NCBI GenBank assembly: GCA_002179805.1
Contig: NAVB01000231.1
Span: 1 to 64,000 of the forward strand
Length of the DNA: 64,000 nucleotides
DNA from: Acanthamoeba lenticulata
Taxonomy: Eukaryota; Discosea; Longamoebia; Acanthamoebidae
Direction of reading: 5' to 3'
Shown: positions 57,454-64,000 of the stretch, in pieces
Position numbering within the stretch: position 1 is the first letter of the stretch
Layout of the letters: the number at the start of each line of letters is the position of its first letter
Program-made: the position numbers and the translations under genes
The notes under the pieces: generated by a model
What the model saw: only the letters and a program-made list of their open reading frames with translations
What the model was told of the DNA's origin: nothing
Database searches by the model: none

Positions 57454-59038
57454 ATGGAAGTGGACCCGCAGACGACACAGCCGACTGAGGTAGACCCTGC
57501 GCAGCCGAAGCAGGAGGACTTGTCGGGAGACGGAGGTGTGCTCAAGACCATTCTCGCTGAGGGCAAGGGCACCGAGACGCCCTCTTCGGGCTCTGACGTC
57601 AAGGGTATGTCCGCTCATTTCGCGATTTCGATTTCAAATCACACTCACAGTGCTGGTGCACGACGCGGCATGCAGTCCACTATACGGGCACCCTTCTTGA
57701 TGGGACGAAGTTCGATTCCAGCCGCGACCGTAATGAGCCTTTCAAGTTTAAGCTTGGTGCTGGCCAAGTGATCAAGGGTTGGGACCTCACGGTCGCCACC
57801 ATGAAGCGCGAAGAGCGCTGCCGTGTGGTGCTGCGTTCTGACTACGCCTACGGCAAGAGCGGCTCGCCTCCCTCCATCCCGCCCGATGCCACTCTCGGTA
57901 AGTCACTCTTCCTGTCCCACTTCGCAAGATTTGGCGCTGCATCCTTCACGGGTTTGATGGGTGTCGCTAATCCATGTGCGCGTGCAGTGTTTGATATTGA
58001 GCTGATCAGCTGGCAAGACGAGGAGGACCTCACGCACGACGGCGGTGTGCTCAAGAAGATCCTGGTCGCCCCTCCGAAGGAGAACTGGGAGCGTCCCAAG
58101 GACGACGAAGAGGTCAAGATCAGCTACACCCTCCGCACGGCCGACGGCGAGGTCATCGAGACGAAGAACGACTACTCTGTGGTGCTGGGCACCGAGTCCC
58201 TCCCCTCTGGCCTGGAGAAGGCACGCATAGGCCTCCACCTACGCGCACACTGTTCTGACCCACTGGGGCATGATTGACTAAGACTGATAACGTCATCGTC
58301 AACAGGGCATTGAGAGCATGAGGAAGGGCGAGAAGGCGCTGTTCAAGCTGACCGGCGAGTACCACAAGGGAAGCCCAGCGCAGGCGCCTGCCGATGCCGT
58401 GCTGCACTACGAAGTGGAGCTGCACGACTACACCAAGCAGAAGGCCTCGTGGGAGATGACCAATGATGAGAAGATCACCGCCGCACAGAAGAGCAAGGAC
58501 GAGGGCAACGACCTCTTCAAGGCCGGCAAGTACCAGGGCGCCATCAAGAAGTACAAGAAGTCGCTGTCGTTTGTGGAGAGCGACTACTCGTTCACCGACG
58601 AGGAGAAGACACAGGCCAAGCCGCTCAGGGTCACCGCCCACCTCAACACGGCGGCCTGCAACCTGAAGCTCAAGGCTTACAAGCCGTGCATCGAGGCCTG
58701 CGACAAGGCCCTTAAGCTCGACGCCAACAACATCAAGGCCCTCTTCCGAAAGGGCCAGGCCCTCAACGCCCTGGACGAGTGGCAGAGCGCCGAGGCCTCG
58801 CTCGACCGGGCCCTGGAGATCGAGCCCGAGAACAAGGAGGTCCAGCGCGAGCGCATGCTCCTCAAGCGCAAGGTGCGCCCATACCTCTTTGCTCTCTTGA
58901 ATTGACTAGCGCGATTCGACTCACAGACTCGCCGCCTGGTGTCATGCACAGATTGCTGAGCAGGAGAAGAAGGACAAGAAGCGATACGCCAACATGTTCG
59001 CCCGCCTCCGCGAGGAGGAGCCAAGCTCGAGCTCATGA
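57454..59038 (+). CDS. FKBP52-type peptidyl-prolyl isomerase with TPR domain
   Basis: Five exons: 57454-57604, 57676-57897, 57988-58220, 58306-58872, 58952-59038; 419 aa. High-molecular-weight immunophilins isomerise prolyl bonds and bind the Hsp90 C-terminus. FKBP domain 1 is well kept: VHYTGTLLDGTKFDSSRDR, GAGQVIKGWDLTVATMK, SDYAYGKSGSPPSIPPDATL and FDIELISW. FKBP domain 2 (about 130-250) is degenerate. Three TPR helices pairs follow from KITAAQKSKDEGNDLFKAGK through ALFRKGQALNALDEWQSAEA, containing the Asn/Lys residues of the Hsp90 carboxylate clamp. It ends KKRYANMFARLREEE. Intron 3 uses a GC donor (GCACGC) at 58221. Only two, not three, FKBP units precede the TPR, as in animal FKBP4/5. 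Confidence 0.95.
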
Positions 59039-59214: not shown

Positions 59215-62200
59215 ATGGAGCTGGCACGAGGTGGTCGTGGGGTTGAGGTGCCTCGCGTAAGCCCAACTTCAAGTCGAAGTTGGGCCAAGCGCGATTTCTT
59301 GGTTGCTATTGAAAAGGAGATGAACCAGCGATGGCAAGAGCTCATGCTGTGGGATGCTGACGCGCCGCCCGAGGAGAGCGAGCAGGGCGCGCTCGACAAG
59401 TTCCTGATCAGCGTGCCCTGCCCCTACGCGCATGGCCGCCTCAAGTTGAGCGACGTCGCCACAATCGCCAAGGCCGAGTTCGCCGCCACCTACCAGAGAC
59501 TCAAAGGCAAGCGCGTCCTCTTCACGCTGGGCTTCCACGGCACCGGCCGGGGCATCCAGGCCCGTGCAGAGCTGCTGCAACGCGAGCTCCAACCACAGCC
59601 TGAGCCAGAGGAGACTGCACCTTTGCCACGGAGCAGGTACAAAGCCAAGTTCAAGCACCATCAATGGAGCCAGCGAGAAGCCTTGCTGGCGATGGGCGTG
59701 CCAGAGAGCGAGCTGGCCAAGTTCGTCGACGCCCGGCACTGGATCACCTACTTTGCCTCATGCGCCATAGCGGACCTCAAGGACATGGGCGTCTGCGTCG
59801 ACTGGCGCCGCACGTTCATCACCCCCGAGGTAAACCCCTTCTACGACTCTTTCGTCCGCTGGCAGTTCGAGAACCTCAAGGCCCAGGGCAAGGTCCTACA
59901 CGCCACCGGCTACGTGATTTGCACGCCGCGAGACGGCCAGTCCTGCCACGACCAGGACCGCGCCAGGGGCGAGGGCGTGCTGCCGCAAGCGTACACGCTG
60001 GTTAAGCAGGAGGTGCTGGGCCCGCTGCCCGAGAAGATGAAGTTACTCGAGGGCAAGAAGGTCTACCTCGTGCCGGCCACCCTGCGACCGGAGACCATGT
60101 ACGGGCAGACCAACTGCTTCGTGCTCCCGACGGGCGCCTACGGCGCCTATGAGATCAACGACACCGACGTCTTCCTCTGCAGCGAGCAGGCCGCCACGAG
60201 TACGCATCATGACGCCCTCGTCCGCTTGAATGAACATGCGCAGGGCTGACGGACGGGAAGCGATGTGGGATTATGGGCAGACCTGAGCTTCCAGGGTCAC
60301 TCGAAGCAGTTTGGCAAGCACGTGTGCCTTGTGGAGCTCACCGGGCAGGACCTCATCGGGCTCAAGCTGCGTGCGCCGCTGGCCAGCTACGAGGCCATCT
60401 ACGTGCTGCCCATGCTCACGGTCTCGCTCGAGAAGGGCACCGGCGTGGTCGCCAGCGTGCCCAGCGACACGCCGGGCGACTACGCGGCCCTGATGGACCT
60501 CAAGACCAGGCCGGCCCTCCGGGCCAAGTACAACGTGAGCGACGAGATGGTGCTGCCCTTCGAGGTGGTGCCCATCATCGACATCCCCGAGTACGGCGAC
60601 ACAGCCGCGGTCAAGCTCTACCACGAGCTCAAGATTGCCAGCCAGAACGACAAGACCAAGCTCGCCATCGCCAAGGACCGCGTCTGCCTGGAGGGATTCC
60701 ACAGAGGCGTCATGAAGGTCGGCGCCCACGCTGGCATGTACGGAATGCGTCCTACATATTATTTTTTCTTTATTTTTTGTTATTTATTTCTTTCTCAACC
60801 GTTGAGAGCAGGAAGGTGCAGGACGCCAGGCCGCTGGTCAGGAAGGAGCTGATCGACGCCGGGCAGGCCATCGTCTACAGCGAGCCCGCCGAGACGGTGA
60901 TCGCGCGCTCGGGCGACAAGTGCGTGTGCGCGCTCACCGACCAGTGGTACATCGCCTACGGCGAGCCCGAGTGGCGCGCCCAGGCGGAGGCCGTCCTGCG
61001 CGACCTGGACACCTACGGCTCGGCCAAGACCCGCCACCAGCTCGAGTGGGTCCTCGACTGGCTGCACGAGTGGGCCTGCGTGGCGGGGCGCCACGGCCTC
61101 GGGACCAAGCTGCCGTGGGACGCGCAGTTCCGCATCGCGCCCTCGTCCGACACGACCCTCCACACGGCCTTTAGCACGGTGGCCCACCTCCTGCAGCCCT
61201 GTGGGCACGACGCGAGCTCGGCGGGCATCAAGGCCGAGCAGTTGACCAACGGCGCGTGGGACTTTATCTTGGGGCGCGCCGACGACGTCCCGGCCGACGC
61301 GGCCATCGCGGCCGACGCGCTCAAAGCCCTGCGCCGCGAGTTCGAGTCCTGGTGCGTCCATGATTCGAGCTTCGAGGCGTCATCATCGTTGTTGGCTCAT
61401 CGTCGTCGTCAATACAGGTACCCGCTGGACTGCTACGTGGCGAGCAAGTCGATGGTGCCGAACCACCTCGCCTTCATGCTCTACCACCACGCGGCCCTGT
61501 TCCCCAAGGAGCGCTGCCCGGGCGGCGTCCTGGCCTGTGGCAAGTTGATCAAGAACAGCGAGAAGATGGTCATAGCCACGGGGAACGTCCTCACACTGCG
61601 GGAGGCGATGGCCAAGTACTCGGTCGACGGCATGCGCTTCGCGCTGGCCGACTCGGGCGACACCACCGAGGACGCCAACTTCCTCGAGGACACCGCCAAC
61701 GCGGGCGTGCTGAGGCTCTACGCGCAGATCGACTGGATCAAGGAAATGCGGACGGCCATCGCGGCGGGCAACCTGCGCGAGGGCGCGCCGTCGAGCTTCT
61801 TTGACCACGTGTTCGAGAGCGAGATCAACCGGGCCATCGCGCTCACGGAGACCAACTACGAGCGCATGAAGTTCCGCGAGGCCCTCCTCACCGGCTTCTG
61901 GAACCTGCAGTCGGCGCGCGACAACTACCGCCTGGCCGAGAAGCAGCACATGAACAAGCAGCTGGTGGAGCGGTTCATCGAGGTGCAGACCATCCTGCTG
62001 GCGCCGATCTGCCCGCACTACTGCGACTACATCTGGACCAGCCGCGACCTGCTCGGCCGCAAGGGCTCTGTGCGACAGACGTCGTGGCCGACGGCGGGCG
62101 CCGTGGACGAGGCCCTGCTGGCGCAGAACGAGTTCCTGCAGGAGGTGCTGCACACGTTCCGCCTGCGGGTGCAGAACACGCGCGAGCAGTTTGTGGAGAC

Positions 62201-62645
62201 GGCGCACGGGTTCGTCTACGTGAGCGACGAGTTCCCGCTGTGGCACCAGAAGGCCATCAAGGCGCTCGTGCCCCTGTTCAACACGGCCACGGGCGAGTTC
62301 GAGCCGGACTTCAAGAAGCAGGTGGCCGACGCGCTCAAGGGCGACGCAAGCCTCAAGGCCGACAGCAAGAAGATCATGAACCTGGTGGCCGACATGCCCA
62401 ACCGGATCAAGGCCGACGGCCCAGCGGCGTTCAACCTCGTGGCGCCATTCGACCAGCTGGCGCTGCTCGAGGCCCACCGGGCGTTCCTGCAGGAGCAGCT
62501 GGGCCTGGAGAGCCTCACCATCTACTCGGCCTCGGCTGCCGATGCGCCGGACCACGACAACAAGAAGGGCGCTGCCGTGCCGCTCAAGCCCGTCTTCACC
62601 TTTGGCGGCGAGAAGAAGAAGGTCGAGAAGAAGAAGCGCAGATAG
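59215..62645 (+). CDS. Leucyl-tRNA synthetase paralogue lacking HIGH and KMSKS motifs
   Basis: Four exons: 59215-60199, 60281-60737, 60812-61351, 61418-62645; 1069 aa, the length of eukaryotic cytosolic LeuRS. The whole fold aligns: DFLVAIEKEMNQRW, PYAHGRL, EFAATYQRLKGKRVLF, DWRRTFITPEVNPFYDSFVR, the CP1 editing domain, DQWYIAYGEPEW, PNHLAFMLYHHAALFP, DGMRFALADSGDTTEDANF and FIEVQTILLAPICPHYC. Both ATP-site signatures are lost: the HIGH box (usually HLGH) reads KLSD at 59443-59454, residues 77-80, and KMSKS reads KMVIA at 61563-61577, residues 710-714. The editing motifs TLRPETMYGQTN (60079-60114) and VPSDTPGDYAAL (60448-60483) are preserved, including the conserved Asp. The frame is intact with normal splice sites, so it is not an obvious pseudogene. 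It probably cannot activate leucine; hydrolytic editing may remain. Confidence 0.9.
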
Positions 62646-62703
62646 AACTTTAGTGCCTATTACTCAATATTTTTTAACTCTTAGCACCCTGGTGGAGGAT
62701 ACT

Positions 62704-64000
62704 TCACTCCTCGCCGAGGAGGTACTTCTCGACGAACATGGCCTCTCGCGCGAGGTAGAAGTCGATGTTGCCCTTCTTCTTGAACCCGTGCCCTGTGCGT
62801 ACCACGTATGATGCACAGCGTCAGATAAAACCTGGACTGAAGGTGGCGGCAAGGTGGTGGCGGTGGTAGTCACCTTCGTCCTTGGCCAGGATGTACCAGA
62901 CGGGCATCCCGGACTGGCGAATCTTCTTCACGACCTGCTCCGACTCGGACGCGGGCACGCGCGGGTCGTTGGCGCCTTGTTGTGTGCATCAAACAAACGC
63001 GCAAACACGCAAACGGGTGAGCGCCACACCAATGCCTGGATCCAGGGCCATCGCTGGCACACGCACACCACCAGGGCGGATGGGCGCACCCTGAGAGATG
63101 AGCATGGGCTTGTTGATTTCGTGGGCTCGCGCGGTGGGCGAGATGGCCTGGAGGAACGCGCGCATCTCTGGATTGCGCTCGTCGCCGTATTCCTCACGCC
63201 TCTGTCATCATCAGCATACATCATCAGCATCATCGTCATCATCATTAGCATTGGCAAGGGCGAGCTCGAAGCGAGACGCACGTTGTCGCGACGGTAGGAC
63301 GACGTGTTCTCGAGAAAGGTCACAAAGTTGCTGATGCCCACGCGCTCCATGCCGCAGCGAAGCTCGCGGCCAAAATGGATCATGGAGGCCAGCACCATGA
63401 AGCCGCCATACGACCCGCCGTCGACCATCACGCGGTCGGGATCGAGCTCCGGCTGGCGCTTGACCCACTCGATGAGCTTCCCGATGTCGCGCACAGCGTC
63501 CTCGCGCCGGAAGCCGTTGTCGAGCAGCAGGTAGGACTTGCCGTAGCCCGACGACCCGCGCACGTTGGGCGCCAGCACGGCCACGCCCAGCTCGCAGCAG
63601 TAATACTGCACCCGCGGGATGAACTGCGGACGCCACTGGCTCTCTGCGCGTGTGTCCGCGTGTGTGCGCCGCAAATTAATTGGCGCAGACGCCGGCCAGG
63701 CTGAGCTCGGTGTTCATACCAGGTCCTCCGTGGATGGTGATCATCACGGGCAGGCGCTTGTCTCCCGGCGCAGTCGAGCGCCGAGGCCGATAGTAGAAGG
63801 CGGGGATCGTGCGGCGGCGGCCCTCGTCGTCCTCGTCAAAGGTGTCGAAGCGGACCAGGCTGGGCACGACGAACGTGTCCGTGTCGAGGCCGCCCACCTC
63901 GCTGAAGGTCCAGCGCTCGGGCGCCGACGTCGACGCAGAAGCCTCGTCACCGGCGCCTGTGAGCATGGCGTCAGCCGATCGCAATCAGGTTTGTGAGAAT
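62704..64000 (-). CDS. Prolyl-oligopeptidase-family (S9) peptidase, C-terminal part
   Basis: The gene runs off the window end, so only the C-terminal part is seen. Resolved exons in transcription order include about 63643-63282, 63201-63090, 62975-62874 and 62792-62704, with further exons upstream. Diagnostic sequence: PVMITIHGGPGMNT, then VAVLAPNVRGSSGYGKSY, the nucleophile motif DGGSYGGFMVLASM (catalytic Ser), ISQGANDPRVPASE (catalytic Asp) and KDEGHGFKKKGN (catalytic His), the standard alpha/beta-hydrolase triad of S9 peptidases. This suggests an acylaminoacyl peptidase or dipeptidyl peptidase-like enzyme. The N-terminal beta-propeller must lie outside the window. It is convergent with the LeuRS paralogue, only 58 nt between stop codons. 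Confidence 0.92.

Follow-up and report, generated by a model that had tools for sequence, protein, structure and literature searches.

Synthetase paralogues that have lost catalytic activity are already known, and the paralogues of leucyl-tRNA synthetase (LeuRS) in the surveyed literature are archaeal and keep either adenylate synthesis or some charging. According to the relevant passages of PMC9437257, LeuRS-I of the Sulfolobaceae (Weitzel 2020, as summarised there) makes the adenylate without charging, has a disrupted CP1 domain and a divergent C-terminus, binds tRNA-Leu and is needed for optimal growth, and LeuRS2 of the Halobacteria keeps its tRNA affinity with strongly reduced charging. 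Among eukaryotes, SLIMP is a dead paralogue of seryl-tRNA synthetase (SerRS) in invertebrate mitochondria, whose active site is ablated and whose tRNA-binding coiled coil is kept (PMC10570016, sections concerned), and the human LARS splice form LSV3, produced by exon skipping (71 residues), is charging-dead and keeps the RagD-binding C-terminal site (PMC8941210, passages on this form). Here we describe psl (pseudo-LeuRS gene), a paralogue of cytosolic LeuRS at 59215-62645 on the plus strand of a 64,000-nucleotide stretch of the Acanthamoeba lenticulata genome (contig NAVB01000231.1, positions 1 to 64,000; the whole stretch is called the window), in which the synthetic site appears destroyed and most editing residues are kept. 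No dead LeuRS paralogue gene of Acanthamoeba or of another eukaryote appeared in the titles and abstract openings searched, a set with subscription papers mostly outside it, and the paralogue passages of a Leishmania survey (PMC3532385) concern other synthetases, not LeuRS.

The losses of psl centre on synthesis. The initial annotation had placed KLSD and KMVIA exactly at the columns of HLGH and KMSKS, with the TGN after the KMSKS loop retained, and alignment with 47 eukaryotic LeuRS confirmed all of this. Residue roles were taken in human LARS1 numbering from the relevant part of a structure paper (PMC7229842), and 10 of the 14 synthetic-site residues named there are replaced in psl (Y52C, H60K, G62S, H63D, H251Q, L594S, S597T, S718V, K719I and S720A), leaving Y54, L61, K716 and M717 unchanged. 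Of the HIGH and KMSKS residues, H60, G62, H63 and K719 are present in 47/47 aligned LeuRS, L61 in 46/47 and S718 in 45/47. The RVSGKDL motif is also broken, and four of the five residues of the leucine pocket (Y52, Y54, H251, L594 and S597) are replaced; most of these pocket losses, including H251Q, had been missed initially. Judged as an active cytosolic LeuRS (EC 6.1.1.4), psl fails at the HIGH motif, the KMSKS motif and the leucine pocket alike. With 144/435 residues of the catalytic blocks replaced, at least 10 losses among the 14 sites would occur at random with P = 0.004, a value to be read with the fact that psl was chosen for two of those motifs; for the pocket alone, four of five gives P = 0.04. 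Invariant sites were defined over 46 LeuRS picked by length and dissimilarity from the best 120 of 3243 matches, and the linker at residues 124-152, where one more invariant is lost, was excluded from the counts. Of these invariants psl lost 33/105 in the catalytic halves, 5/55 in CP1 (including H251) and 0/11 in the anticodon-binding and C-terminal domains, and the intact LeuRS of the same genome lost 0/171. The sequence thus supports the proposal of a full-length LeuRS with its synthetic site destroyed.

The same losses bear on whether psl could be a leucine sensor for TOR; an amino-acid sensor had initially been offered as one alternative to editing. Human LARS does sense leucine apart from charging, but the passages of PMC8941210 on sensing describe it as using the same leucine site as catalysis, and four-fifths of that pocket is replaced here. 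Sensing through the old pocket was rejected on these replacements and is hardly credible. The human RagD-binding peptide is poorly conserved in psl as well as in the intact amoeba enzyme (4/21 identical in the latter), which weakens the amino-acid-sensor idea further.

By its sequence, psl certainly belongs to the LeuRS family, which need not imply activity. Its frame of 1069 codons plus stop is open across four exons and three GT-AG introns with 0 internal stops, as had been stated initially, and the protein is LeuRS throughout, scoring 734.9 bits against TIGR00395 (cut-off 648.5) and 600.4 bits against NF008957, under the cut-off of 677 of that model. Because psl exceeds the TIGR00395 cut-off, automatic annotation would name it an active enzyme; psl is therefore an annotation trap, in which a protein without the motifs passes an NCBIfam leucine--tRNA ligase equivalog cut-off. 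Its closest match, among the best 120 of 3243 database matches, is the LeuRS of Acanthamoeba castellanii Neff (71%). An AlphaFold model of exon 1 has moderate confidence (mean pLDDT 68, below 50 in the T-rich loop), and its top Foldseek match is human LeuRS 6lr6 (E 5.7e-17, TMq 0.48, root-mean-square deviation 17 A); homologues sat in the alignment behind this model, so that it is no demonstration of psl folding.

The initial annotation had proposed searching for a second LeuRS with intact motifs, and counted the lack of any other cytosolic LeuRS, together with resequencing that restored HIGH and KMSKS, as evidence against its reading. Such a gene was found, beyond the window, on the contig that carries psl (C209, 96347-92552, minus strand; 1117 amino acids, six exons, HLGH and KMSKS present), about 30 kb downstream and in inverted relative orientation. 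A whole-genome DNA search with psl gave only two loci, psl and the intact gene, and a search with human LARS1 gave these two and one weak match on contig C69. The intact protein differs from Neff LeuRS at 5-18% of residues, depending on the block. Bacterial-type LeuRS genes, presumably mitochondrial, were also seen at C781:17349-19749 and C1373:12783-15166 with near-equal scores, and are perhaps two haplotypes held apart in the assembly. A partly duplicated assembly of this kind would be one ground for taking psl as an artefact, whether formed by chimeric joining of an allele to the intact gene or by base errors. But the two genes sit on a single contig with 30 kb between them, in opposite orientation and with different introns, and errors do not yield an open frame of 1069 codons whose roughly 200 replacements are, on average, conservative; we consider an artefact very improbable.

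A comparison of the two genes shows that psl is a mosaic, a feature which the initial annotation had missed together with the intact paralogue outside the window and the C-terminal tail of psl, which is shorter than that of the intact LeuRS. Among codons for the same residue, synonymous-only differences number 20/54 at residues 21-123 and 11/62 at 153-243 on the catalytic N side, 18/238 at 244-510 (CP1) and 13/175 at 511-755 (the KMSKS half), and 1/25 at 756-785, 5/124 at 786-910 and 2/144 at 911-1056 on the C side. Compared with CP1, divergence is much higher at the 5' end (P = 2e-7) and lower at the C-terminus (P = 0.008). Residues differ at 5/30 positions of 756-785, 0/124 of 786-910 and 2/146 of 911-1056, with one residue inserted in psl near 836, and the DNA match between the genes stops at 62633, just short of the psl stop codon. 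Patchy gene conversion between the two genes would fit this pattern. In trees, psl stands beside the intact gene in 4/4 blocks, with branches of 0.99, 0.13, 0.49 and 0.011 in block order against 0.030, ~0, 0.003 and ~0 for the intact gene. Counts of quartet sites support grouping psl with the intact gene in CP1 (8:0:3), in the KMSKS half (10:1:1) and at the C-terminus (21:0:0); in the 5' part they show no clear preference for this grouping (4:3:1), so that a duplication before or after the split from Neff is allowed.

The introns add to this history. A simple retrocopy of the intact gene is ruled out, as two introns are common to both genes and psl has one more. A second copy of this extra intron 3 was searched for in the genome and none was found. 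At its position the fetched homologues P0241 and P0242 begin and the Neff protein is two residues short, and P0002, P0006 and P0297 run through; intron 3 is possibly ancestral. The intact gene has a 123-base intron (G000:C209:95304-95426) at a point where the sequences of psl, P0126 and P0155 continue uninterrupted. It is possible from these comparisons that the intact gene gained that intron and lost one at the site of psl 61352.

Is psl alive or decaying? We simulated free decay in 300 runs for each of four mutation models until as many replacements had accumulated as psl shows; the intact gene served as ancestor, and all changes were placed on psl. The simulations produced on average 5.1-9.5 stops within residues 21-1056, where psl has 0, and no run without a stop (0/300 in each model); in the catalytic blocks combined they produced 3.8-7.5, with zero-stop runs at 0, 0, 0 and 2.3%. 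The replacements in these blocks are milder than simulated (mean BLOSUM62 -0.18 against -0.61 to -0.65, 0/300 as high in each model), fewer hydrophobic columns turned polar (11 against 22-27, P <= 0.003), and the GC content at third codon positions (GC3) is 0.917 against 0.79-0.87, with a GC content of 0.31-0.59 in introns and flanks. Nine indels separate the genes between codons 24 and 1065, the same nine in frame-blind DNA alignments at two settings, and the length of each is divisible by three; outside this count are the N-terminal 23 codons and the tail, which are hardly alignable and where not all gaps are multiples of three. psl thus shows none of stops, frameshifts or neutral composition by which a pseudogene would be recognised. 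A check by the ratio of nonsynonymous to synonymous divergence (dN/dS, or omega), which had been recommended, was divided in its outcome. A codon model with biased third positions gave omega of 0.07-0.31 in 7/8 single blocks and 1.07 in the 29-codon linker, but by the NG86 method dN is about equal to dS at 545-755. Because dS is model-dependent in such GC3-rich genes (about 0.19-0.31 by NG86 and about 0.5-0.7 by F3x4), we give the codon-model omega little weight and, for the same reason, claim no positive selection on the KMSKS half.

Several results, besides the NG86 value, weigh against selection on psl. In single blocks the absence of stops could arise by chance (P 0.03-0.45), the BLOSUM62 score at 153-243 is not unusual (P 0.24-0.33), the hydrophobic count in the KMSKS half is not clearly so (P 0.05-0.19), and the 13 synonymous changes in that half are not above a neutral expectation of 14-22. 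Near-identity of the C-terminus is explicable by conversion alone, without constraint. Moreover, invariant sites were lost about as often as other sites, block by block: 11/24 against 34/75, 6/22 against 23/69, 5/55 against 24/212 (CP1) and 16/59 against 52/181. LeuRS-type constraint is therefore gone from psl, CP1 included. The equal loss at invariant sites and the NG86 value would suit a duplicate drifting to a pseudogene, with its frame open by chance or only recently released and its 3' part refreshed by conversion, and so would the psl branch of 0.99 against 0.03 in the 5' block, the lost C-terminal tail and the 26 lost linker residues; frame and conservative pattern could also be inherited from a long functional phase which recently ended. 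However, the stop-free catalytic blocks and in-frame indels remain to be explained, and the conservative replacements and the kept GC3 lie in the least converted blocks, where conversion could hardly have refreshed the frame. We regard drift as unlikely, if a serious alternative. Free decay is disfavoured, and psl seems to be selected for frame and fold, not for LeuRS catalysis. That it is a selected, translated pseudoenzyme of some kind is, on these sequence comparisons, probable.

The initial annotation further proposed that post-transfer editing could persist, and this claim stood in part. psl keeps the editing residues T293, T298, D399 (the catalytic Asp) and K464, and its T-rich motif is 12/12 identical. 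CP1 and the KMSKS half have near-equal synonymous difference, 18/238 and 13/175 as given above, but replaced residues are 29/267 in CP1 and 68/243 in the KMSKS half, and the replacement-to-synonymous ratios of 29:18 and 68:13 differ (P 0.006). For another LeuRS, GlLeuRS, which we read as that of Giardia, the isolated CP1 domain is reported to be fully functional on its own (PMC3532385, passage on this domain). Several points weigh on the other side. Two invariants of the editing-site GTG loop (47/47 LeuRS) are changed, T390A and D398G, both missed initially; special protection of the editing site within CP1 was looked for and not found (3/29 changed against 26/238 in the rest of CP1, P 1.0); in the above ratio neither HIGH-side block is significantly different from CP1 (P 0.42 and 0.36); and the 29 CP1 differences all arose in psl, 0 in the intact gene. 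Thus trans-editing is permitted by the sequence as a possible activity, not demonstrated; it is the most attractive candidate function, but editing as the main job of psl looks doubtful.

The two lost editing-loop invariants would suit a scaffold or regulator that takes no part in the handling of charging errors; psl would then join the intact LeuRS or a multi-synthetase complex as a subunit, or compete with it, much as SLIMP serves insect mitochondrial SerRS. A fast catalytic domain combined with a kept tRNA-binding part is what the available passages of PMC10570016 describe for SLIMP, and LSV3 shows LARS signalling without charging (PMC8941210, same passages). But SerRS2-alpha lost its coiled coil (PMC10570016), and no such complementary loss is seen in the active partner here, as the intact LeuRS lost none of its 171 invariants. 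Neither does the RagD peptide, poorly matched even in the intact enzyme, or the RBD_LARS1 score of psl (21.7 bits, under the cut-off of 27) speak for such a role, which we consider improbable. A translated pseudo-synthetase that binds tRNA-Leu, with or without editing, is the reading that the sequence moderately favours, at somewhat better than even chances.

Relatives of psl were sought in homologue lists comprising the best 120 of 3243 matches (7999 word-sharing candidates scored), the best 120 of 477, and 81 of 81 (8000 scored). A motif-pattern survey over 320 fetched proteins, with alignments of subsets, found H[LIVM]GH in 225/225 proteins with a placeable HIGH and KM(S/A)K in 154/157 with a placeable KMSKS, the three exceptions being P0019, P0254 (KISKS) and P0316. 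No psl orthologue was recognised among the 320 by these means, and a scan of IMG/VR for relatives of the Neff LeuRS protein found nothing. By eye, however, we spotted in an alignment a protein that the motif pattern had missed: P0242 (JGI metagenome, 409 amino acids), a fragment of an Acanthamoeba-like LeuRS 68% identical to psl exon 4, has KVTRA for KMSKS and HVSSKDL for RVSGKDL. Over positions on which the canonical Acanthamoeba-type sequences (five, where present) are unanimous, changes in psl and in P0242 coincide at 10/84 sites against 4.75 expected (P 0.003), four with the same residue, and nine ordinary LeuRS used as controls against psl gave P 0.30-0.98; a point on the other side is that P0242 also overlaps 3/9 of these controls (P 0.01-0.03). 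In trees it stands beside psl in the KMSKS block (support 56, weak) and near Neff-like sequences in the C-terminus (53, weak), a placement compatible both with a paralogue that is old and was converted in each lineage and with losses that arose independently. We take P0242 as a candidate and, judging from its motifs, probable second dead LeuRS, which suggests that psl is not a single accident.

Another fragment, P0155 (221 amino acids), has Ala for H251 with the T-rich motif intact and 2/44 invariants lost, otherwise ordinary LeuRS variation. We no longer count it as another dead LeuRS and treat it as a lead: it overlaps all 10/10 ordinary LeuRS controls in its changes, and its overlap with psl is therefore not specific. 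P0245 (298 amino acids) is a fast-evolving LeuRS C-terminal fragment with a two-residue insertion (SRDLLGR) common to psl and the intact gene; it might represent, in a close relative, a paralogue that escaped conversion.

Taken together, the comparisons show psl to be a further copy of the cytosolic LeuRS gene, situated some 30 kb away from the intact one in inverted orientation. In both halves of its split catalytic domain the HIGH, KMSKS and GKD motifs and most leucine-pocket residues are gone, with frame, hydrophobic pattern and codon usage kept beyond simulated free decay. Such a protein should be unable to make leucyl-adenylate, and would still fold as LeuRS and bind tRNA-Leu via its near-identical anticodon-binding and C-terminal domains. 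More tentatively, its CP1 might hydrolyse wrongly charged tRNA-Leu in trans, and psl might assist the intact enzyme by binding, and possibly deacylating, tRNA-Leu. More generally, patchy gene conversion may be a way for a paralogue to have some domains preserved and its catalytic domain set free. A whole class of editing-only LeuRS pseudoenzymes in Acanthamoeba-type amoebae, full-length factors for trans-editing or tRNA-Leu handling with a freed catalytic domain and other modules refreshed by conversion, is an attractive but rather unlikely extension of this scheme.

Table 1. Coordinates of psl and its parts in the window
Feature	Position	Strand	Basis or remark
psl (pseudo-LeuRS gene), 1069 codons, four exons	59215-62645	+	open reading frame; TIGR00395 734.9 bits
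Exon 1: N-terminus, HIGH half of catalytic domain, CP1 start	59215-60199	+	open reading frame; exon 1 AlphaFold model
KLSD replacing HIGH motif (HLGH)	59443-59454	+	alignment of LeuRS proteins
Linker region, net -26 residues; intact gene has introns 1 and 2 here, psl neither	59584-59670	+	
Gln replacing invariant His (human H251, leucine pocket)	59953-59955	+	alignment; H251 role from relevant part of PMC7229842
T-rich editing motif TLRPETMYGQTN, 12/12 kept (human T293-N304)	60079-60114	+	alignment
Intron 1	60200-60280	+	same position as intron 4 of intact gene
Exon 2	60281-60737	+	
Editing-site GTG loop: T390 to Ala, D398 to Gly, catalytic D399 kept	60451-60480	+	alignment
Intron 2	60738-60811	+	same position as intron 5 of intact gene
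Exon 3	60812-61351	+	
Leucine-pocket L594 to Ser, S597 to Thr	61143-61154	+	alignment
Intron 3	61352-61417	+	absent from intact gene
Exon 4	61418-62645	+	
RVSGKDL motif: GKD to SKS	61443-61451	+	alignment
KMVIA replacing KMSKS	61563-61577	+	alignment
Anticodon-binding and C-terminal domains, near-identical to intact gene; putative recent conversion tract	61701-62642	+	

The genes beside psl were assigned to families by eye: upstream lies what we take to be an FKBP-TPR protein (about 57597-59038, plus strand), and downstream, presumably, a prolyl-oligopeptidase-type peptidase (62664-64000, minus strand).

Trans-editing factors of the DTD type are small proteins, and psl differs from them as a whole LeuRS whose editing is only predicted. 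Free-standing factors such as DTD (PMC5802732, part concerned) would clear mischarged tRNA in trans, and psl would let one ask, in a natural setting, whether this task can be done by a whole LeuRS. LSV3, likewise a form of cytosolic LeuRS, demonstrates a use for human LARS without charging; unlike psl, which is a separate gene and has lost most of the leucine pocket, it retains that pocket and can sense leucine (PMC8941210, passages cited above). SLIMP is the nearest eukaryotic analogue of psl in its mode of evolution: both are eukaryotic synthetase paralogues with a fast catalytic domain and a kept tRNA-binding part. Unlike psl, SLIMP is class II and mitochondrial and in the fly forms an obligate heterodimer with a partner that lost a domain, and the passages of PMC10570016 on it mention no editing domain. 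LeuRS2 is, like psl, an extra LeuRS, but it is prokaryotic and retains low charging, as far as the relevant passages of PMC9437257 describe it. With LeuRS-I, as described in the same passages, psl shares its origin as a duplicated LeuRS, and LeuRS-I binds tRNA-Leu but does not aminoacylate, as is predicted for psl. LeuRS-I is archaeal and psl eukaryotic, and by sequence psl is its reverse, having lost synthesis but retained the C-terminus and most of the editing residues; a eukaryotic cytosolic LeuRS with synthesis destroyed and editing residues kept would be the reverse of the archaeal LeuRS paralogues.

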